Part shown: positions 794 to 12,342 of the stretch, piece by piece
Layout of the letters: every line of letters starts with the position of its first letter
Numbering within the stretch: position 1 is the stretch's first letter
Assembly: GCF_900215325.1 (NCBI RefSeq)
Contig: NZ_OCMS01000003.1
Coordinates: 248,001-312,000, forward strand
Direction of reading: 5' to 3'
Length of the DNA: 64,000 nucleotides
DNA from: Fibrobacter sp. UWB16
GTDB taxonomy: Bacteria > Fibrobacterota > Fibrobacteria > Fibrobacterales > Fibrobacteraceae
Notes under the pieces: model-generated
Seen by the model: only the letters and a program-made list of their open reading frames with translations
Databases searched by the model: none
Told to the model about the DNA's origin: nothing
Program-made: the position numbers and the translations under genes

Positions 794-3487
794 ATGGCAA
801 AGTATAATCCGCAAGAAATCGAAACCAAGTGGCAAGCCTACTGGGAAGAACATCAGACGTTTAAGACTGGCGAAGACAAGTCCAAGCCGAAGTATTACTG
901 CTTGGATATGTTCCCGTACCCGAGTGGTGCTGGCCTCCATGTGGGCCATCCGGAAGGTTACACTGCAACGGATATCATTTGCCGCTACAAGCGTAGCCGC
1001 GGTTTCAATGTGCTCCACCCGATGGGTTGGGACGCTTTCGGTCTCCCTGCTGAACAGTACGCCATCCAGACTGGTACGCACCCGGCCATTACGACCAAGA
1101 AAAACTGCGACAATTTCCGCCGCCAGATCAAGCGCCTCGGTCTCTCTTACGACTGGAACAAGGAAGTCAACACTACCGATCCGAAGTATTACAAGTGGAC
1201 GCAGTGGATTTTCAAGCGCCTTTATGGCACCTGGTTCGATGAAGACCAGCAGAAGGGCCGCCCGATTGAAGAACTCCCGATCCCGGCCGATGTAGAAGCC
1301 AAGGGTGCAGCCGAAGTCCGCAAGTACAAGGATTCTAAGCGCCTCGCTTACTACGCCGACGCTCAGGTGTGGTGGTGCAAGCACTGCAAGATTGTCTGCG
1401 CTAACGAAGAAGTTTTGAACGACGGCTCTCACGAAAAGTGCGGCACCAAGGAAGTGGAACGCCGTAACCTCAAGCAGTGGCTCATGCGCATCCCGCTGTA
1501 TGGCGACCGCCTCTTGAAGGGCCTCGACAAGCTCGACTGGCCGCAGGGCGTGAAGGACATGCAGAAGAACTGGATTGGCAAGAGCTACGGTGCCGAAGTT
1601 GATTTTGCTATCGCCGATGCTGAAGGCAAGCCGACCGAAAAGAAGCTCCGCGTCTACACGACCCGTTGCGATACGCTGTTTGGTGCGACCTACATGGTTG
1701 TTGCTCCGGAACACGCTATGGTGCCGGAACTCACGACTGCCGAACAGAAGGCCGCCGTGGAAGAATACGTGCACGCCGCCGCTCTTAAGAGCGACCTCGA
1801 CCGCACCGAACTTGCCAAGGAAAAGACCGGTGTGTTCACTGGTTCTTACGCTGTGAACCCGCTCACTGGCACGAAGATTCCGGTGTGGGTTGCTGACTAC
1901 GTTTTGACGGGCTATGGCACCGGCGCTATCATGGCTGTGCCTGCTCACGATACTCGCGACTTTGACTTTGCAAAGAAGTTCAACCTCCCGGTTATCTGCA
2001 TTATGGAACCGGACGCTAGCTGCCCCGAAGATGTTCGCCCGAAGGTTCTCGCTGGCGAAGCTTGCTGGGCTGCCGATGGCACCTACATCAACAGCGAAAA
2101 TGCAACGCTCTGCCTCAACGGTCTCAACAAGAAGCAGGGTATCGCCAAGGTGATCGAATGGCTCGAAGCCAACAAGATCGGTAAGGCAACCGTGAACTAC
2201 AAGCTCCGCGACTGGCTCTTCAGCCGTCAGCGCTACTGGGGCGAACCGTTCCCGATTATCCACTGGGAAGATGGCGAAATCTCTACCGTCGATGATTCCG
2301 AACTGCCGGTGCTGTTGCCGGAACTCAAGGACTACAAGCCGGGTGACGGCGGTCAGTCTCCGCTCGCGAACGCCACCGAATGGCTCCAGGTCGTCGATAA
2401 GAACGGCCGCAAGGGTATCCGCGAAACGAACACCATGCCGCAGTGGGCTGGTTCTTGCTGGTATTACCTCCGCTACATCGACGCTTGCAACGGCGACGCA
2501 TTTGTGGCAAAGGAACTTGAAAAGTACTGGATGCCGGTCGACCTCTATGTGGGTGGTGCCGAACACGCCGTGCTTCACTTGCTCTACAGCCGTTTCTGGC
2601 ACAAGGTCTTGTTCGATCTCGGCCTCGTCTCTACCGACGAACCGTTCCAGAAGCTCTTCAACCAGGGCATGATTCTTGCCTTCGCATACGAAGATGCTGC
2701 TGGCTCCAAGGTCCCGACTGACGAAGTCGAAGAAAAGAACGGCAAGTACTTCAAGAAGGGTACGGACATCGAGCTCAAGCAGATTGTGGCTAAGATGAGT
2801 AAGTCCCTCAAGAACGTCGTGAACCCCGATGACGTTGTTCGCGACTACGGTGCCGATAGCCTTCGCTTGTACGAAATGTTCATGGGCCCGCTGGACGCTG
2901 TGAAGCCGTGGCAGACCAAGGGCATCGAAGGCATGAACCGCTTCCTCGGCCGCGCCTGGCGCTCCGTGGTGGGTGACGACGATGCTGCTCCGGTTTATGT
3001 TGACGAAACCGCTCCGGAAGCAATCGAAAAGGTGATGCACCAGACCGTTATCAAGGTCACAAGCGACATCGAAAACATGAGCTTCAACACCGCCATTAGC
3101 CAGTTGATGATCTTCAACAACGAAATGATGAAGATGGACAAGCGCTACCGCGAGCCGTGCGAAACCTTTGTGAAGTTGCTGCACCCGTTTGCCCCGCACA
3201 TCGCCGAAGAAATGTGGAGCATCCTCGGTCACAACGAATCGCTCACGAACGTCGCCTGGCCGGAAGCCGACCATTCCAAGGCCGTGGAAAACACCGTGGA
3301 AGTCGTGTTCCAGGTGAACGGCAAGGTCCGCGCCAAGGCATCTGTTGCCAAGGACTTGGACAAGGCCGAACTTGAGAAACTCGCTCTTGACAACGAACGC
3401 GTGAAGGAATTTACCAAGGGAATGACTGTCGTCAAGTCGATTGTTGTGCCGGGTAAGTTGGTCAATATCGTTGTCAAGCCGGCATAA
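794..3487 (+). CDS. leuS: Leucyl-tRNA synthetase
   Basis: This is a class I aminoacyl-tRNA synthetase that charges tRNA-Leu in the cytoplasm. The 897-residue length is normal for bacterial LeuRS. The HIGH-type motif reads HVGH at about residue 49, after FPYPSGAGL. The KMSKS motif is at about 667-671. The CP1 editing domain holds the [19 protein letters not shown] segment near residue 290. The C-terminal domain ends in [13 protein letters not shown]. That 3' end is present as three further copies downstream (3517-3555, 4711-4812, 10994-11026), so this gene end appears to be an insertion point for accessory DNA. The open frames on the opposite strand (up to 843 codons) are shadows of this gene. 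Confidence 0.98.
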
Positions 3488-3498
3488 TATTGAGCCTG

Positions 3499-3517
3499 CC
3501 CCGGACTTGTTCCGGGG
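3499..3517. repeat. GC-rich hairpin between leuS and its first 3'-end copy
   Basis: CCCCGGA and TCCGGGG form a 7-bp stem with a 5-base loop. There is no T-run. The same CCCCGGA...TCCGGGG core occurs in the terminator at 62503-62532, so it belongs to a dispersed hairpin family. Confidence 0.6.
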
Positions 3518-3555
3518 TGGTTCCGGGCAAGCTCGTGAACATCGTGGTTAAATAA
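3517..3555 (+). pseudogene. Duplicate of the leuS 3' end, copy B
   Basis: The 39 bases translate as [12 protein letters not shown] plus stop, matching the last residues of LeuRS, only 30 bp after the real leuS stop. A 33-base stretch (3522-3554) is identical to copy D at 10993-11025, and these two copies flank the accessory region. The nucleotide sequence differs from the genuine leuS end at many wobble positions, so this is not a recent tandem copy. Confidence 0.85.
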
Positions 3556-3562
3556 GACTAGT

Positions 3563-3610
3563 GTGTCATCCTGAGCGGAGGCGCGCCGCGCCGAAGTCGA
3601 AGGATCCTGT
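3563..3610. repeat. GTCATCCTGAGC-type intergenic repeat, copy 1
   Basis: The repeat begins TGTCATCCTGAGCGGAG, has a GGCGCGCCGCGCC core and ends GAAGTCGAAGGATCC. A near-identical copy lies at 6561-6608, and a shorter relative is translated in frame inside feoB at 17367-17399. It is a palindromic REP-like element. Confidence 0.8.
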
Positions 3611-3621
3611 GATTTATAAGA

Positions 3622-3652
3622 AGACCGTAGCTTAACTGCTGCGGTCTTTTTT
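3622..3652 (+). terminator. Terminator of the cassette junction (copy 1)
   Basis: AGACCGTAGC and GCTGCGGTCT form a 10-bp stem with one wobble, followed by six T. The same hairpin recurs at 6619-6650 and, degraded, at 9894-9927, so it travelled with the repeat at the cassette boundaries. Confidence 0.85.
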
Positions 3653-3657
3653 ATTTC

Positions 3658-3686
3658 TTGAACAAAATGTATTTTTTCACTATAAT
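3658..3686 (+). promoter_or_regulatory. Sigma70-type promoter for the DUF2971 gene
   Basis: TTGAAC (3658-3663) and TATAAT (3681-3686) are 17 bp apart. GGAAG follows at 3701 and ATG at 3712. The promoter overlaps a longer possible frame starting at 3658, which rules that start out. Confidence 0.7.
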
Positions 3687-3711
3687 AAATGTTTTATTAT
3701 GGAAGTTGATT

Positions 3712-4644
3712 ATGCTTAACGATATGAAAAAAATGTATTGCGAAGAATCGGATAAATTTCTCTATCATTATACGAAAATAGATGTTCTTCAACATATTTT
3801 TAACGATCCGAATGGAGTAAAAGTAAATTTACGGTTTACTGATTATCATTTTCTTAATGATGCCGATGAAGGAATTTGGTTCTATAATTTCTTAAAGAAT
3901 CATAAAAAAGATGTTGTAAATATTTTCGAAAAGGAAAATGAACGGGAATATTGCGAATTTGCTATTGACAATTTTTTGGGGTATGAGAGTTATTTCTATC
4001 GCCTTAATGAACATTATGGTAAACATTATTCATTTTCATTGTCTGAGATGAAGGATTCTATGCAGTTTTGGCGACAGGATTATGCGAACGAAAATGGTGT
4101 CGCCCTTCGTTTTAATACAGAGTTGTATAAAGATAAGAACAATGATCTTCCATATCCTGTTCCTGAACTAGAATGTGTTCATTATCTTGGAAATGATACC
4201 ATGAAACAAATCTTTTCAGAATTTATAAAAATAGTTACAGATGAAGCTGATTTGATAAAATATAAAGAAGAAATTGATAAAGACGGCGAACCTATTGTTG
4301 ATATGCAAGGGGCTTCTGTCCTAAATAGGGCTCCGTTTTGGGTGATAAAAAATAGCGTATGGAAATCGGAACGGGAATGGCGTTTGACGAAGTCTGTGGG
4401 GGCTCTAAATCGATCTGTTTATAATCAAGAACATGAAAAAAGTGATTTTGAACAAAAGTTTGAAGTGGACGAAAAATGTATTCCGCGATACAGGATGGAC
4501 ATTCGAAATCCATTTGATGAAATTATATTAGGACCATCTTTTTCTGATTATTATATTGATTCTGTGAAGGTTTGGCTTGAATTACATAATTATAAGGATG
4601 TTGATATTTCTAAGAGCTTGGGACATGAGCGTCGGAAAATTTGA
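3712..4644 (+). CDS. DUF2971 family protein
   Basis: The product has about 310 residues and the hallmarks of DUF2971: an N-terminal LYHYTK motif, LRFTDYHFLNDADEG near residue 45, and a C-terminal NSVWKSEREWRLT motif. The biochemical function of this family is not established; members are frequent in accessory and defence-rich DNA. The ATG at 3712 is chosen because GGAAG lies 6 bases upstream and a promoter ends just before it. The gene is AT-rich compared with leuS and lies between leuS 3'-end copies B and C, consistent with acquisition. Confidence 0.8.
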   Translation: MLNDMKKMYCEESDKFLYHYTKIDVLQHIFNDPNGVKVNLRFTDYHFLNDADEGIWFYNFLKNHKKDVVNIFEKENEREYCEFAIDNFLGYESYFYRLNEHYGKHYSFSLSEMKDSMQFWRQDYANENGVALRFNTELYKDKNNDLPYPVPELECVHYLGNDTMKQIFSEFIKIVTDEADLIKYKEEIDKDGEPIVDMQGASVLNRAPFWVIKNSVWKSEREWRLTKSVGALNRSVYNQEHEKSDFEQKFEVDEKCIPRYRMDIRNPFDEIILGPSFSDYYIDSVKVWLELHNYKDVDISKSLGHERRKI

Positions 4645-4710
4645 TTATGTGTTGAATAAGCTCTCTTTCTTAATGTACTGCTTTTTTGTGATGTGACTTA
4701 TCGCTTTTAG

Positions 4711-4812
4711 GTTGTGAAAAATTCCGTTGAAGTCGTGTCCCTAGAGAACGGCGAAATTGTTGTGTGGTCCATCGTGGTCCCGGTCAAACTTGTGAATATT
4801 GTGGCGAAGTAA
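4711..4812 (+). pseudogene. Decayed leuS 3' end, copy C, with an internal deletion
   Basis: The frame reads VVKNSVEVVSLENGEIVVW followed by SIVVPVKLVNIVAK and a stop. The first part matches the leuS segment around [15 protein letters not shown] (3289-3330) and the second matches the last residues of LeuRS; roughly 30 codons between them are missing. There is no start codon or promoter, so it is a relic. The rest of the gene-free stretch 4645-4976 shows no other feature except AT-rich DNA before the next gene. Confidence 0.8.
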
Positions 4813-4976
4813 GTTGTTGGGAAAGGGACGCTTAGAAATTAGATGCTTGTGTACGGACTAGGAATTCCGAACAAAAAAATGGTGTATTTTAATGAATGGT
4901 TGAATTTAATTCAATTGAAAGATGTATATTAGCGTAAATTCATAATAGAATTGGTTTATAAAATATTGGAGAAATG

Positions 4977-5549
4977 ATGAATTCTTTAAATGAGATCGCG
5001 ATCTGTTTGGAAAATATAAGCTTTTTTGAATGGATTGTTTCTTTTATGACAAGGGGTATTATGCTTGGTCTCTTTTTAGTGATTCCTGTACTTATTGTAT
5101 TGGTTCAAATGATTCGTTTTTTGATATCTGATTCCGCTGTGAAAGATGAAAACAAGAATTTGCCAAAAGGAAAAACTATAAATATCAAAAATATGGGGAA
5201 AGCAGACTTGTCGAATAAAGACTTCTCCAATTTGATGTGCAATTCGGCAAGTGTTGTTTTGGATGAGAGAAACCGTCGAACGGAACTAATGAAGTCGTAT
5301 GTAATTGTTCCTTTGGAAATGTACTTCTATGTTCTTTTTATGTTAGGTGCAATTTATGTTATGGGAAAGTTTTTTGAAGCTTATCAAGATAATCCCATAT
5401 TAGGTGTGAAAAAATTAGTGGACTGCCTTCATAAGGATTGGATTGCTGCAGTTTTTCTTTTTGGACTATTTATGCATAGAGTTGTCATAAAGAAGATTGA
5501 TGATATTATAGAAATTCAAGGTATTAAATTTAAAAATAAAAAAAAGTGA
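4977..5549 (+). CDS. Small membrane protein, three predicted TM segments
   Basis: The family was not recognised. The product has about 190 residues with hydrophobic segments at roughly 17-48, 108-130 and 150-168. The soluble loop between the first two contains a short run of the form ADLSNKDFSNL. The C-terminus is Lys-rich and cytoplasmic-looking. ATG 4977 is preferred to 4974 because GGAG ends 5 bases before it. It is the first gene of a probable three-gene operon (4977-6545) inside the leuS accessory region. Confidence 0.55.
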   Translation: MNSLNEIAICLENISFFEWIVSFMTRGIMLGLFLVIPVLIVLVQMIRFLISDSAVKDENKNLPKGKTINIKNMGKADLSNKDFSNLMCNSASVVLDERNRRTELMKSYVIVPLEMYFYVLFMLGAIYVMGKFFEAYQDNPILGVKKLVDCLHKDWIAAVFLFGLFMHRVVIKKIDDIIEIQGIKFKNKKK

Positions 5550-5556
5550 GGCTTGA

Positions 5557-5862
5557 ATGAATGGAACTGTAGCTGCAAATACCGTACTAATTATAAGAAA
5601 TTTTTGGGGTAATGGTACTATTGTAGAAGTTAATCTCAATGCGCCAAACTTGCGTGCTTTTTGGATTAACAATCATGATGAAGCTGACGATGAAATTTCA
5701 ACAGATTGTGAAATTAATCAAGGCGAATCCATTCATGTGATTGCTAATAATCGTCGAAATGTTATATTGTATAACAATAGTGCAGAAGCGCATGATTATG
5801 ATATTTCTTTTTATGTTGCTGGGTTGCCATTGGGGGCAATGTCTGCAACATCTGGTTTTTAA
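5557..5862 (+). CDS. Hypothetical 101-residue beta-rich protein
   Basis: The family was not recognised. It begins 7 bp after the previous stop, behind a GAGG site, and ends 2 bp before the next gene, so it is translated in the same operon. The sequence alternates polar and aliphatic residues (VLIIRNFWGNGTIVEVNL, ESIHVIANNRRNVILYNN) as in a small beta-sandwich. There is no signal peptide or TM segment. The Gly/Ser-rich end (LPLGAMSATSGF) is disordered-looking. Confidence 0.5.
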   Translation: MNGTVAANTVLIIRNFWGNGTIVEVNLNAPNLRAFWINNHDEADDEISTDCEINQGESIHVIANNRRNVILYNNSAEAHDYDISFYVAGLPLGAMSATSGF

Positions 5863-5864
5863 AA

Positions 5865-6545
5865 ATGGATAAAGCTAAACTCATAAAGACAATAAATCAA
5901 AAGGGCTTTCGGAATAGCCTTATTTCTATCTATTATAATATTGGCAGAGCTTTGCCGTTTCGTGCACAGCGATTTCCTGATGGACGCGTGTCCGATTGGT
6001 ATCGGTCGCAGTTTGTAGAAGTTCACGATGTAAAACCTGGTGGTAAGGGCGGAAAATATGGACATGCTTATGGTTTTTATTTCAGAAATGGAGAACGTGC
6101 GGACGCAGTGGAAAATAATCCCGAGCAAAGCTGGTGCAAAATGAGTGATGCTGAGCCGAAAGGAATCCCGTGTGCGGCCTGTGGATCATGGGTGCTTTTG
6201 GATATTTTGGGGAAGGCTACGGCAGAGCCGGCAAAAATTTATGGTGTAAAAGATGTGTTGGATGTTGGCAAGCATAAGGGAGAAACCTTATCTGAGGTTA
6301 TTTGCTATGATTGGGGATGGGTAAAATGGGCTAAAGCAAATGCGGAACACATCTTTTTTGATGAGGATGAAGTGATTGAAGAAAGGAATAAGAGTATCAA
6401 ACATCTTCATTTAGATGATGTATTAACTTATGGAAAATATAAAGGGCAAAGTATTAGAAATATTGCTCATATCGATATTGATTATCTTAGGTGGCTGGCT
6501 ATGAATGACGAGAATTTTATCTTTGATTTTAAGGAATTGTTATAA
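5865..6545 (+). CDS. Protein with two ExoX C-terminal-like motifs
   Basis: The product has 226 residues. The N-terminal half has basic and aromatic residues and a CAACG motif near residue 104. The C-terminal half carries two tandem motifs: DVGKHKGETLSEVICYDWGW (about 126-145) and TYGKYKGQSIRNIAHIDIDY (about 186-205), the second followed by LRWL. This GK(H/Y)KG...YLRWL pattern is found at the C-terminus of exodeoxyribonuclease X-like proteins and related nucleic-acid proteins. No exonuclease DEDD motif is visible, so a nuclease call is not justified; nucleic-acid binding is an inference. It is the last gene of the 4977-6545 operon. Confidence 0.55.
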   Translation: MDKAKLIKTINQKGFRNSLISIYYNIGRALPFRAQRFPDGRVSDWYRSQFVEVHDVKPGGKGGKYGHAYGFYFRNGERADAVENNPEQSWCKMSDAEPKGIPCAACGSWVLLDILGKATAEPAKIYGVKDVLDVGKHKGETLSEVICYDWGWVKWAKANAEHIFFDEDEVIEERNKSIKHLHLDDVLTYGKYKGQSIRNIAHIDIDYLRWLAMNDENFIFDFKELL

Positions 6546-6560
6546 TATCTTTCAAAGAGT

Positions 6561-6608
6561 GTGTCATCCTGAGCGAAGGCGCGCCGCGCCGAAGTCGAAG
6601 GATCCAGT
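6561..6608. repeat. GTCATCCTGAGC-type intergenic repeat, copy 2
   Basis: Near-identical to 3563-3610, including the GGCGCGCCGCGCC core, and followed by the same terminator. The pair marks the edge of one cassette in the leuS accessory region. Confidence 0.8.
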
Positions 6609-6618
6609 GATTTACAAA

Positions 6619-6650
6619 AGACCGTAGCTTAATCGCTGCGGTCTTTTTTA
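6619..6650 (+). terminator. Terminator of the cassette junction (copy 2)
   Basis: AGACCGTAGC-TTAATC-GCTGCGGTCT followed by six T; the same hairpin as at 3622-3652. Confidence 0.85.
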
Positions 6651-6824
6651 TGGAGAGAAATGCGTTTCCTTAGCTTGGTTTGCGTCTAACCCTTATGAAT
6701 GCCATTTTTTGCGAAAAAATGTACTTTTCGTAATCTTTTTTGAACATTTCGCTTGTTTTGTGTTATTTTAAAGGGTGATTTTTTTGCTCGTGCCTTCTAA
6801 GTGAAGTAAAAGATGGAGAAAACG

Positions 6825-8327
6825 ATGAATTTCGATGAAAAATTGGCTAATTCTGCGGCGAATAGAGCTTTGTATGATCGTGTTTCTCGTTATGGGAGTG
6901 CCGCTGCACTCGATTTAGCGGCATACGATGGCAAAGGAGGATATGTCGAGCAATGCAAGCGTAGTCTAAAGAGTATCTCTGAGAGTAAGTTTGAAAAAAA
7001 TGTGGACGAAACGCTTCGCGAGAAAATTATAAAACAGCAAGCAGGTTTTTCGGCAGAAGTTATCGAAACGACAAAGATCAACAAACAGCGGATTATCAAC
7101 GGCGAGAAGGTCCGCAATTTTCGCATGGATGATCTTGGCAAAACTAATGACCAGTTGGTTGATACCGTTGATGCGGTGCAAATGTCCGATGGCTCATGGA
7201 AAGAAGTCGCAGGTACCGGCGTCCAGATGAAATTTATTGGTAAAAACGGCGGTGAAACATTTGATAAACTATGTAGTGCAAAGCATGAAAAGTATTACGC
7301 GAGTGGAACTCCTGTCAAAATTCCCAAAGACTTTTACGCAGAATTTAAAGAAAGGGCAGATTCGAAAATCAATGGCTTGAAACAAGAAATTAAGACGCTG
7401 AACGCGCAAAAGGCAAGTCCGGATTTAATCGCCTTGAAAAAAGCCCAGCTTAAAAAATACGAGACCATCCGCCACAACACTTATGCTAGCGAAACTACAA
7501 ACGAAGATGCCCTATTAGCCCGGACTAATCCAAAACGATATACTGCAAAATCCATGCTCGGGACTGCTCATGAGGCGGGTAAGGGAGCCGCGATGTCTGG
7601 TGTACTTATCGGCGGCGGCATGGCTATCGTCGGCAATCTGGATGCTGTGCTCAAAGGTAAACCCATTGACGAAGCTCTCAAAGAAGTTGCCGCCAAGTCC
7701 GCAACATCGGCTGTTCGCTCATACGCTGTAGCAAGCGGGGCAACGCTTATCGAAGGCGGTGTTCAGCATTACAAAAGTGAACTTCCCAAGCTGTTAAAAA
7801 ATGCCAAGGCCCCCACAGAAATAGCAGGTTTCGTAGTCGATGCCGCTTCGGCTTTTTATAACTACTACAACGGAAGTATCTCCGGCGTGGATTGTATGAA
7901 GCAACTTGCTACTAGTGCTACGCTTGCTTTAGCAAACTTGACTCCCGTTGGTCAAGCTGTATTTATTGCGCGAACCGTCTATACATTGTCAACTATCAGC
8001 GTTACAGTCATCAAAGACGCGTTAAAGGCTCCCAAAATCGCAAGAGAACGCCGTATTCAAATCGAGCTAGAATGTCGAGAGCAAATCCAAGCAATGAAGG
8101 CGTTCCGAGAAGAATTTGAACATAACACGCTAGCGTGGGTTGACGAAAAAACAAATGTTTTCAAGACGGCTCTCGATGCTATGGACAATGCACTGCAAGT
8201 GAATGATGTCGATGCATTTATTTGCGGAGCGAACCAAATCACCCATGCAATGGGAGGCCAAACGCAATTCAGCAACTGTAAAGAATTTAACCGTTTGATG
8301 GAATCAGACGAACCCTTTATTCTCTAA
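6825..8327 (+). CDS. Large hypothetical protein with a glycine/alanine-rich membrane-like core
   Basis: The product has about 500 residues and no recognised enzyme motif. Residues about 170-230 form a charged helical, coiled-coil-like region (INGLKQEIKTLN...LKKAQLKKYETI). It is followed by an AHEAGKGAAMSGVLIGGGMAIVG segment and further Ala/Gly-rich helices to about residue 400, resembling membrane-inserting glycine-zipper helices. The C-terminal 100 residues are again helical and polar. ATG 6825 is chosen because GGAG (6815-6818) lies 6 bases before it; ATG 6813 has no good site. It is the first gene of an operon with the next two genes, a possible membrane-acting system. Confidence 0.55.
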   Translation: MNFDEKLANSAANRALYDRVSRYGSAAALDLAAYDGKGGYVEQCKRSLKSISESKFEKNVDETLREKIIKQQAGFSAEVIETTKINKQRIINGEKVRNFRMDDLGKTNDQLVDTVDAVQMSDGSWKEVAGTGVQMKFIGKNGGETFDKLCSAKHEKYYASGTPVKIPKDFYAEFKERADSKINGLKQEIKTLNAQKASPDLIALKKAQLKKYETIRHNTYASETTNEDALLARTNPKRYTAKSMLGTAHEAGKGAAMSGVLIGGGMAIVGNLDAVLKGKPIDEALKEVAAKSATSAVRSYAVASGATLIEGGVQHYKSELPKLLKNAKAPTEIAGFVVDAASAFYNYYNGSISGVDCMKQLATSATLALANLTPVGQAVFIARTVYTLSTISVTVIKDALKAPKIARERRIQIELECREQIQAMKAFREEFEHNTLAWVDEKTNVFKTALDAMDNALQVNDVDAFICGANQITHAMGGQTQFSNCKEFNRLMESDEPFIL

Positions 8328-8349
8328 CGAACTCAATAAGGAGTAAAAT

Positions 8350-9360
8350 ATGCCTATACCATTAATTGTTGGCGGCATCGTCGCAGGGCTTGTCGGAGTC
8401 AAAAAAGCTTACGATGCTCATGAAACGAGCAAATGTGCCGAAAGTATAGATAGCCGTGCTCATTACGAACGTGAATGCGCAAAAGAGGATGCAGAAAGAC
8501 GTCGCGTAGAATGTCAAAAGTCTTTGGAAAAGTTGGGATCCACTAAATTCGATATTTTGAATAACGGAATAGCTCAATTCGTCCGAGCCTTCAAAAAAGT
8601 CAAAAATATCGACGAACGCAATAGTGTAGGGCTTGACGAACTTTCCAAATTGCTTTCTAAAGAAGAACTTGTCGAAATGCAAACGATGGGATCTCTGGCA
8701 GAAAGTGTCGCTAATGGTGCCGTTGGTGGCGTTGCCACAGGCGCTCTTGTCGCGCTTGGCGCTTATGGGGTGACATCCACCTTTGGCGTCACTGCTACAA
8801 CAGGGGCTCTGATTAGTAACTTGTCTGGAGCTGCAGCTACCAAAGCGACTCTCGCGTCCCTTGGTGGTGGAGCTTTGTCTGTAGGTGGCCTTGGAGTTGT
8901 TGGCGGCAAGATGGTTCTTGGAAGCGTCGCTTTAGGGCCGGCTCTTGCCGTTATGGGTTTTGTCATGAACGCCAAGGCTGAAGAAAAATTGGAAAATGCG
9001 CGAGCCAACCGTGCAAAGTCCGAACAATATGTAGAACAGTGCAGAACCCTCTGTTCCACATACTTGTGCATCAAAATGAGAAGCGATACCATTTCGGGTA
9101 TTCTCAATAAATTGAGGAGTCGCCTGATGTCCGCTAATAGGACTATTGAACGCATTATTGCACGCTACGAAGATAGTACCGGTACAGCAGATTTCCGTAG
9201 TTTTAGTGACGACGAAAAAAAGTCGCTGGCCGCCGCGGCAGCTTTGGCAAAATCTGTCAAGAGTATTTTGGATACACCCGTCTTGACTCAGGATGGAAAA
9301 CTGACTCCTCAGTCTGAAATCATTGCCGAAGCTGATTACGACGATGATGACATGGACTAA
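8350..9360 (+). CDS. Glycine-zipper membrane protein, partner of the preceding gene
   Basis: The product has 336 residues and starts with a hydrophobic helix (PLIVGGIVAGLVGVKKAYDA). A charged helical region follows, then a Gly/Ala/Val-rich stretch at about 118-205 (GAVGGVATGALVALGAYG, GGGALSVGGLGVVGG) typical of tightly packed membrane helices. A Cys-containing helical region and an acidic tail (DYDDDDMD) end it. An AAGGAG site precedes ATG 8350. Its stop overlaps the next ATG (TAATG). Function unknown; its pairing with 6825-8327 suggests a two-component membrane complex or pore, which is inference. Confidence 0.55.
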   Translation: MPIPLIVGGIVAGLVGVKKAYDAHETSKCAESIDSRAHYERECAKEDAERRRVECQKSLEKLGSTKFDILNNGIAQFVRAFKKVKNIDERNSVGLDELSKLLSKEELVEMQTMGSLAESVANGAVGGVATGALVALGAYGVTSTFGVTATTGALISNLSGAAATKATLASLGGGALSVGGLGVVGGKMVLGSVALGPALAVMGFVMNAKAEEKLENARANRAKSEQYVEQCRTLCSTYLCIKMRSDTISGILNKLRSRLMSANRTIERIIARYEDSTGTADFRSFSDDEKKSLAAAAALAKSVKSILDTPVLTQDGKLTPQSEIIAEADYDDDDMD

Positions 9361-9626
9361 TGCCGTCAGAACACTTTAAATGCGATTGCTGTGGCCTATG
9401 CTGCCGTTCCCTGAAAAAAGTTCCCGCCCTAGCGGACTTTGACAGGGGCGACGGTGTTTGTGTTAATCTTGGCGACGACAATTTGTGCAAGGTGTACAAT
9501 AGTCGTCCCGAAATTTGCAATGTTGAATTAATGTACGAACGCTTCTTTTCGAGCTACTGCTCAAAGGAGGAGTTCTATAAGATTAATGAAGAACAATGCA
9601 AGAAAATAAAAGAAGATTTTTTCTGA
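9360..9626 (+). CDS. YkgJ-family cysteine-cluster protein
   Basis: The product has 88 residues and an N-terminal CDCCGLCCRSL cluster with further Cys at about 35, 43, 53, 68 and 80. This is the CxxCxxCC arrangement of the YkgJ/Fli-like family of putative zinc- or iron-chelating proteins. Translation is coupled to the previous gene through TAATG. Its position behind two membrane proteins suggests a metal-sensing, metal-loading or maturation role for that pair; this is inference. Confidence 0.75.
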   Translation: MPSEHFKCDCCGLCCRSLKKVPALADFDRGDGVCVNLGDDNLCKVYNSRPEICNVELMYERFFSSYCSKEEFYKINEEQCKKIKEDFF

Positions 9627-9833
9627 AAAGTCAGAAAGATGAATGGAATGTATTCGTTCTTTTTTTAATATACACTCTCCAACTGTCATAATCTGTCAAT
9701 CGGAACTGTTGCGGATTTTCTAGATTATTTAGCGCGAAAATAATGCGGAGTCTGGAACCGTCAAAAAACGAATGAGCTTTTTTTTGTTAGATTTCGGACT
9801 TGATTACTGTGTCTATCTTTTGAGAGATTGATA

Positions 9834-9887
9834 ATGGCAAAGTGGAATATCATGGACTTGTTCGCTGGCGCGGGAGGGGATCTATAG
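9834..9887 (+). pseudogene. Relic of a C5-cytosine DNA methyltransferase start
   Basis: ATG at 9834 opens MAKWNIMDLFAGAGGDL and then a stop. DLFAGAGG is motif I (SAM binding) of C5-cytosine DNA methyltransferases, found at the extreme N-terminus as here. Only 17 codons remain, joined directly to a cassette-junction terminator. It is a footprint of a lost restriction-modification or orphan methylase gene. The rest of the gene-free stretch 9627-10041 shows only AT-rich DNA and the following terminator. Confidence 0.75.
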
Positions 9888-9893
9888 AAATTC

Positions 9894-9927
9894 AGATCGT
9901 AGCTTAATCGCTGCGGTCTATTTTTTT
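9894..9927 (+). terminator. Degraded terminator of the cassette junction (copy 3)
   Basis: AGATCGTAGC-TTAATC-GCTGCGGTCT with a T-rich tail; same hairpin as at 3622 and 6619 with one changed base. The REP-like repeat that precedes the other two copies is absent here. Confidence 0.7.
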
Positions 9928-10041
9928 GAACAGGTCGATTAATCTTTACTTGTCCTGATGGTCAAGAATAAGCAAAATTGAAATTGGAGGGGGAATGTTG
10001 CAGCCGTACAAATTATATATTATGCGCACAAGGAGGTTTTA

Positions 10042-11110: not shown

Positions 11111-11166
11111 GCTGTTTTTATATATTTTGTGAAACGGAAAATGATTGTCATCTAATGGAACTTTTT

Positions 11167-12342
11167 ATGGAATGGAACGCCTCGGTCAAGAAACAAATTG
11201 AATCCCGCTTGATGGAAAAGGAAAGATCGCTTGCTGAATATGCCTGCAAGTCTGCGGCTGCGGTTCGCTATCACGAAGCGCAAGAAGATATCCGTCCGAA
11301 CTTTTCCCGCGATGCAGACAAGATTATCCATTCCTATTGCTATAGCCGATACATTGACAAGACTCAGGCGTTTTACCTTGTTGAAAATGACCACATCACG
11401 CACCGAGTGCTGCACGTGCAACTGGTCGCAAAAATTGCAAGGACCATTGGGCGCTTTTTGAATCTGAACGAAGACTTGATTGAGGCGATTTCGCTAGGTC
11501 ACGATGTGGGTCATACGCCTTTTGGACACGATGGCGAAAGGATTGTCTCGAAGTTTTTGCAAGAGCGCGGTGAAGGAATTTTTGAACACAACGTTCAAAG
11601 CTTTAGGCTGTTTCATGACCTTGAAGCGCACGGCAAAGGGCTGAACCTTACCGCACAAGTGCTCGACGGAATCATCTGCCACAACGGCGAAATCCTGAAA
11701 AATGAATACGGCTGCAACCGTAGCAAGACTCCAGAAAAACTGCTGGAAGAATACAGAAACAGCTTAAGCGGAACGCTGAAATCGAAAGAGATGGTCCCGA
11801 TGACATTGGAAGGATGTGTCATGCGAATCTCGGACGTGATTGCGTACGTTGGCCGCGACATCGAAGATGCCATCATCTTGAAACTAGTGAAGCGCGAAGA
11901 CATCCCCCAAGAAATTACGAAAGTTCTCGGTAGCAAAAATAGCGAAATCGTCAACACGCTTATTACAGACCTTGTCAACAATAGTCTAGACAAAGAAACT
12001 CTCGTCTTTTCGCCGGAAGTTTTTGATGCGCTTAATCAGCTGAAAAACTGGAACTACAAAAACATCTATTTGAATCCGAAAAAGTCAACCCAGGATGAAA
12101 AAATCAAGATGATGTTCCGGACTGTCTTGGAAGAATGCCTTGATGAACTCCAGTCTGGCGTGAAAAAGGCGACAGGAATCAATCACTGGTGTGAATCGCT
12201 AGGCGAAAAGTACAAAGAAACGACACCCCTCCCGCGCATTGTCGCCGATTACGTCTCTGGAATGACCGATGACTACCTGATGAACGCCTACAAGGAAATT
12301 GTGATGCCCAAGTCGTTCGGCGTGAGCTTTGGGGAAAAGTAA
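11167..12342 (+). CDS. dgt: Deoxyguanosinetriphosphate triphosphohydrolase (dGTPase-like HD protein)
   Basis: The enzyme hydrolyses dGTP, or other dNTPs, to the nucleoside and triphosphate. The HD-domain metal ligands are clear: H in THRVLHVQLVAKIARTIGR, then the ISLGHDVGHTPFGHDGE signature near residue 110, and a downstream D in RISDVIAYVGRDIEDA. At about 391 residues it belongs to the shorter dGTPase-like group. ATG 11167 has GGAAC upstream; ATG 11155 is the alternative, 4 residues longer. It stands alone downstream of the leuS accessory region and is closed by a terminator at 12358. Confidence 0.9.
   Translation: MEWNASVKKQIESRLMEKERSLAEYACKSAAAVRYHEAQEDIRPNFSRDADKIIHSYCYSRYIDKTQAFYLVENDHITHRVLHVQLVAKIARTIGRFLNLNEDLIEAISLGHDVGHTPFGHDGERIVSKFLQERGEGIFEHNVQSFRLFHDLEAHGKGLNLTAQVLDGIICHNGEILKNEYGCNRSKTPEKLLEEYRNSLSGTLKSKEMVPMTLEGCVMRISDVIAYVGRDIEDAIILKLVKREDIPQEITKVLGSKNSEIVNTLITDLVNNSLDKETLVFSPEVFDALNQLKNWNYKNIYLNPKKSTQDEKIKMMFRTVLEECLDELQSGVKKATGINHWCESLGEKYKETTPLPRIVADYVSGMTDDYLMNAYKEIVMPKSFGVSFGEK

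Follow-up and report, generated by a model that had tools for sequence, protein, structure and literature searches.

The question raised by this locus is what a three-gene operon of the rumen-type Fibrobacter sp. UWB16 does for its host when two of its products, A and B, have no match in Pfam, NCBIfam or PHROGs. A sequence-only reading had called the operon unrecognised and had suggested a membrane-pore or abortive-infection type defence module, or a toxin with a metal-dependent control. The best reading of the present analysis is that the operon is a variant of a catalogued defence superfamily (PDC-M09/PDC-M40, related to Bunzi). The window refers to the whole stretch of DNA analysed (64,000 nt), and positions are counted from its first base.

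Operon structure

The ORF calls give three collinear genes on the forward strand, which form a real operon. Gene A (6825..8327, +) encodes 500 aa counted from 6825. Its ORF opens at 6813, and 6825 is preferred as the start because a GGAG lies just 5' of it. Gene B (8350..9360, +) encodes 336 aa with coiled-coil arms flanking a Gly/Ala-rich hydrophobic core, and gene C (9360..9626, +) encodes a putative metal-binding protein of 88 aa with a CxxCxxCC pattern. The stop codon of gene B overlaps the start codon of gene C by one base (TAATG), in agreement with the tight coupling noted earlier. A PDB sequence search returned coiled-coil noise only. Since the gene set recurs at a second site of the same genome and in other phyla, chance can be ruled out. 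A Fib_succ_major gene is also present within the window.

The closest locus is in F. succinogenes RUG12208 (L020), where gene C is 99% and gene A 95% identical. Residues 25-75 of A and 1-200 of B have approximately 80% nucleotide identity to the window, and the flanks are near 99-100%. Silent changes are also many in this mosaic; therefore, it reads as recombination between alleles, and positive selection is not proven by it.

The leuS insertion hotspot

The operon sits in an insertion hotspot whose left edge is leuS (794..3487, +). The left boundary repeat (6619..6654, +; 36 nt) is a terminator-like hairpin within a copy of about 90 nt of the leuS 3' UTR (6560-6654). The right repeat, which is also a terminator (9894..9929, +; 36 nt), is 89% identical to it. 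A third copy (3602..3654, +) is located directly 3' of leuS (around 3627) and is probably the ancestral leuS terminator. Allowing up to 2 mismatches, no further copies were found in the genome. A stub of a C5 DNA methyltransferase (9834..9887, +; 17 codons, MAKWNIMDLFAGAGGDL*) was read from the sequence just before the right repeat, and a DUF2971 gene (3658..4644, +; Pfam PF11185, 7.9e-8) belongs to the neighbouring accessory module. The boundary repeat with its terminator, the methylase relic and the nearby DUF2971 gene of the sequence-only reading are thus all confirmed. The same hotspot also holds a dGTPase-family gene (11155..12342, +; PADLOC dGTPase, 2.8e-62).

The neighbouring module lies between repeats at 3658-6545 and contains the DUF2971 gene, a 191-aa membrane protein, a 101-aa protein and an ExoX-C-like protein. 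The last of these (5865-6545, 226 aa) has two ExoX-like C-terminal repeats (PF20600, 2e-16). A close homologue is found in a leuS island at L183 (18176-18865), beside a HEPN-like gene, and it is possible that the 226-aa protein is a further defence component. From about 4370, where the L020 sequence sets in, the neighbouring module is conserved at nearly 100% in F. succinogenes RUG12208.

The leuS 3' end is an insertion hotspot in Fibrobacter (3487-9930 in the window; L165 and L176-L183), and several of the islands close with a second, partial copy of leuS (among them G098, G096, G100, G101, G070 and G129). Occupants in other Fibrobacter match the PADLOC models of AbiEii (1e-94) and TmtA of Tiamat (2e-296); other matches are a type III methylase and restriction enzyme, JetA and JetC of Wadjet, AbiLi and a type I methylase. 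Since the ten hotspot proteins scanned were picked for their defence-like look, these matches establish that the hotspot carries defence genes and do not give their frequency. About ten other leuS regions have no obvious defence gene. A PADLOC comparison of 145 neighbours with 137 control proteins from random regions gave no clear difference, with defence genes included by chance among the controls. The association with defence islands, one of the checks proposed earlier, is seen in the address of the operon, without a clear enrichment in the neighbour count.

Second copy and distribution of the family

A divergent second triplet is present in the same genome at G000:C4 (L002/L042). The second-copy A' (477-543 aa) has an HNH-like DH..N..N motif and matches PADLOC PDC-M40B (4e-44), while aligning poorly with A (20%). 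The second-copy B' is 31% identical to B and matches PDC-M09A (1.8e-30). The second-copy C' is 74% identical to C.

The distribution of B is patchy, with B present in 13/167 Fibrobacterota and 31/391 Clostridia genomes. An A-like gene lies directly beside B in all 20 of the strongest Clostridia B loci, and a search for the gene triplet in other genomes, as had been proposed, recovered adjacent A-B pairs in Fibrobacterota, Clostridia, an Azospirillum plasmid and others. Gene C is optional; it accompanies most Fibrobacter and several Firmicutes A-B loci. A TerB gene (Pfam PF05099) is optional as well (L033, L034, L039, L041, L050, L096-L099, L102), and some A-B loci have neither C nor TerB. The Azospirillum plasmid carries a WYL regulator together with A and B, and a PD-(D/E)XK gene is nearby. 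Mutually related WYL regulators are found within about one gene of A at L054, L056, L104, L115, L118 and L127, and HsdR-like or Specificity genes are near other A-carrying loci. Searches of viral and plasmid sequences gave a handful of matches only; therefore, the family is not mainly phage or plasmid cargo. No conjugation genes lie beside the operon.

Apparent decayed copies were also seen. A B remnant directly precedes C in a Selenomonadaceae MAG (L026, 4755-5276), and a broken A is present in a Synergistaceae MAG (L040, 3530-5227).

Protein A

Protein A has a conserved N-terminal domain, a Gly/Ala-rich membrane half and a C-terminal tail of type T1, with weaker hydrophobic segments at residues ~258-282 and ~382-401. 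The N-terminal domain (6873..7508, +; residues ~24-230 counted from the ATG at 6813) contains a putative nuclease core of the form E..D..QxK. In the full-length numbering from 6813 the conserved residues are E82, D117, Q138 and K140. Among 12 diverse N-domain sequences the E and D are invariant (12/12) and the QxK is nearly so, and the conserved motifs are QQxGxSAE, RxDD, NDxxxD and a QMKF-like motif. The order E..D..QxK resembles that of PD-(D/E)XK nucleases, and motif order is what suggests this assignment. An hhalign comparison of the N-domain with Mrr_cat gave no support (a probability of 0.1), with a thin Mrr_cat profile for which most extracted rows were out of frame. The AF2 models of A and B are of low confidence (pLDDT of 54 and 55, from shallow alignments of 6 and 11 rows), and Foldseek gave no significant structural match with these models.

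The membrane half of A belongs to the same family as the PDC-M09B proteins, to which it is linked through intermediates. A profile built solely from the C-terminal halves of window-type Fibrobacter A proteins retrieves A proteins of Azospirillum, Clostridium and others (E of 1e-9 to 2e-32). Proteins found in this way at L033/L114, L038/L118 and L050 themselves match PDC-M09B (5e-14, 6e-9 and 9e-13, respectively). The type-2 (HNH) A proteins match BnzB proteins in their tails (E about 1e-12). The profile and PADLOC matches together therefore indicate at least three kinds of N-terminus on related scaffolds: the E..D..QxK domain of the window, the HNH type and the BnzB domain.

The N-terminal domain also occurs in other combinations. 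The protein at L038/L118 is a chimera of a window-type N-domain with a type-2 tail, and it is accompanied by a type-2 B. On R. albus pRUMAL01 (L055, 4669-9218) a window-type N-domain is found without B and adjoins a large ATP-binding P-loop protein, which from its P-loop looks HerA-like. Pairing with HerA-like ATPases is common among nucleases. PDC-M09B-like partners of 287-318 aa that have no N-terminal domain are still paired with B (L110, 7113-9058; L111, 7034-8999; L112, 6479-8475).

Protein B and cassette exchange

Protein B matches PADLOC PDC-M09A (2e-24 and 1.1e-18). Its N-terminus includes a hydrophobic stretch, and residues ~120-210 form a Gly/Ala-rich hydrophobic core, which long helices flank in the low-confidence AF2 model. 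The core consensus (LSGAAATNATLAxLGGGxLAAGG) is the best-conserved part of the family in the family alignment. Matches of B to LeoBC and LmuB are weak, fall over coiled-coil or Gly-rich stretches and were not used. A and B had been taken as two versions of one layout, and this was not borne out: A is composite, with an N-domain that is exchangeable and probably enzymatic, and B is its regular membrane partner.

The tail of A covaries with B. When the A tail types and N-types were mapped on a B tree (25 proteins), the tail type required 1 change (on a branch with support of 100/100) and the N-type 5 changes. Such a pattern would be expected from an A tail that docks on B and an N-domain carried as cargo.

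Two pairs of loci, at two chromosomal addresses in related species, record the exchange of A and B. The upstream DNA of L021 and L022 is 94% identical until just before A, and 94% identity resumes from the start codon of C. Within this frame C is 100% identical, while identity drops to 23% for A and to 36% for B (HNH/T2 versus E-D-QxK/T1). Likewise, L042 of the same genome as the window and L045, at another address, have C 96%, A 21% and B 31% identical with flanks of 83-97%. Therefore, A and B were replaced together next to a C that stayed in place and is the constant component in Fibrobacter.

Protein C

Protein C reaches the Pfam CxxCxxCC family (PF03692) exactly at the cut-off (23.0 versus 23.0 bits), which upholds its earlier description as a CxxCxxCC protein, and C' scores 26 bits. 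C retains the Cys pattern of the CxxCxxCC/YkgJ family, and its subfamily is short and often tied to A-B cassettes. With the C protein as query, 22 loci were recovered, from Fibrobacter, Clostridium, Acetobacterium, Selenomonadaceae, Synergistaceae and other groups. Many A-B loci lack C, which is also found by itself elsewhere. C-like CxxCxxCC genes are solitary among housekeeping genes in Selenomonadaceae and Synergistaceae.

Comparison with known systems

The families of A and B are in PADLOC as PDC-M09/PDC-M40, with a sister branch that carries BnzB, so the operon is unrecognised only in part; window A itself has no direct PADLOC match at E<=1. B corresponds to PDC-M09A, the C-terminal half of A is homologous to PDC-M09B proteins, and the second-copy A corresponds to PDC-M40B, whereas the N-domain of window A and the CxxCxxCC gene are absent from the matches. 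The PDC entries are described as unpublished, mostly unvalidated candidates from a 'guilt by embedding' screen, without a mechanism (PMC12988326).

Sister A proteins in Clostridia carry a BnzB domain (PADLOC BnzB model; L039, 2e-131; L097, 1e-118; also L107). These proteins stand beside the same B, C and a TerB gene, and their tails match the type-2 A tail. In contrast, the window operon has no BnzB domain (no match for window A) and no TerB gene. The TerB genes found have no match to PADLOC models. Under Millman et al. 2022, PMC10952713 lists Bunzi (BnzA-BnzB) together with TerB.

In terms of how it might work, the operon can be compared with defences of the Zorya and Kiwa type, which combine a membrane complex with a DNA-acting component. 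No sequence relation to them was found, and the comparison is of working principle only.

Proposed function and alternatives

The operon is probably a modular anti-phage defence system in which A and B form a membrane complex, the N-domain of A is a nuclease and C is an accessory. The anti-phage role is well supported by the PADLOC candidates, the patchy distribution, the cassette replacement and the defence hotspot, and to this extent the earlier proposal of a defence module stands. A and B would form the complex through the C-terminal half and tail of A. Held at the membrane, the N-domain (E..D..QxK in the window operon, HNH in sister copies) would act as a nuclease that depends on metal. 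Infection would switch it on, and its target may be either incoming DNA or the host's own nucleic acid. C, like TerB elsewhere, may be a small accessory protein that binds the metal and either supplies it or gates it for all A-B types.

An alternative mechanism is an abortive-infection pore, in which A and B assemble into a helical pore of two components and the membrane is thereby depolarised on infection, with the N-domain of A as a nucleic-acid-binding sensor and C as a redox or metal gate. A pore can be entertained because conservation in the family is highest in the Gly/Ala core of B, set between long helices, and because some PDC-M09B partners pair with B without any N-domain. However, the catalytic-looking motifs of the N-domains (E..D..QxK, HNH) fit effectors better than pure sensors, and no structural match to pore formers was obtained, though with a poor AF2 model. 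The pore mechanism that had been proposed found no specific support, and it is rather unlikely.

The remaining alternatives place the operon outside of phage defence. If A were a toxin, or a polymorphic toxin, with C (or B) as its immunity protein or antitoxin in a selfishly maintained unit, the small coupled downstream gene, the toxin-like variable N-termini and the rapid exchange would be accounted for. However, C is 100% identical beside A-B pairs with unrelated effector domains, and a specific neutraliser would not be expected to remain so; therefore, C is unlikely to be an antitoxin or control specific to A. In addition, many loci lack C, it is the N-terminus of A that varies, and Pfam gave no domain for secretion or delivery in A. 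A toxin unit is accordingly improbable. A function in housekeeping, the envelope or conjugation, with no relation to phage, would agree with the membrane character of the proteins and with the solitary C-like genes, but the patchy presence and the defence hotspot, the lack of adjacent conjugation genes and the rarity on plasmids and viruses make it more improbable still.

Implications

Bunzi, PDC-M09 and PDC-M40 could tentatively be regarded as branches of one modular immune system, with a scaffold of A tail and B, plug-in nucleases, and a constant metal-cluster protein or TerB as a licensing or gating factor, so that species would swap the effector cassette only. New points, as far as the literature searched shows, are this unification, the rule that ties the A tail to B, the clean exchange of cassettes next to an unchanged CxxCxxCC gene, and the insertion hotspot at leuS. 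If the proposal is true, Bunzi, which has been reported experimentally, and two catalogued candidates would be joined in a single modular architecture. The part exchanged would be the N-terminal effector, and the part that needs to match would be the tail of A with B. The loci with the same C and flanks and two unrelated A-B cassettes are a natural experiment in which what the metal-binding component does and what the effector does can be tested directly. The leuS hotspot also provides an address at which further defence systems of Fibrobacter can be sought.
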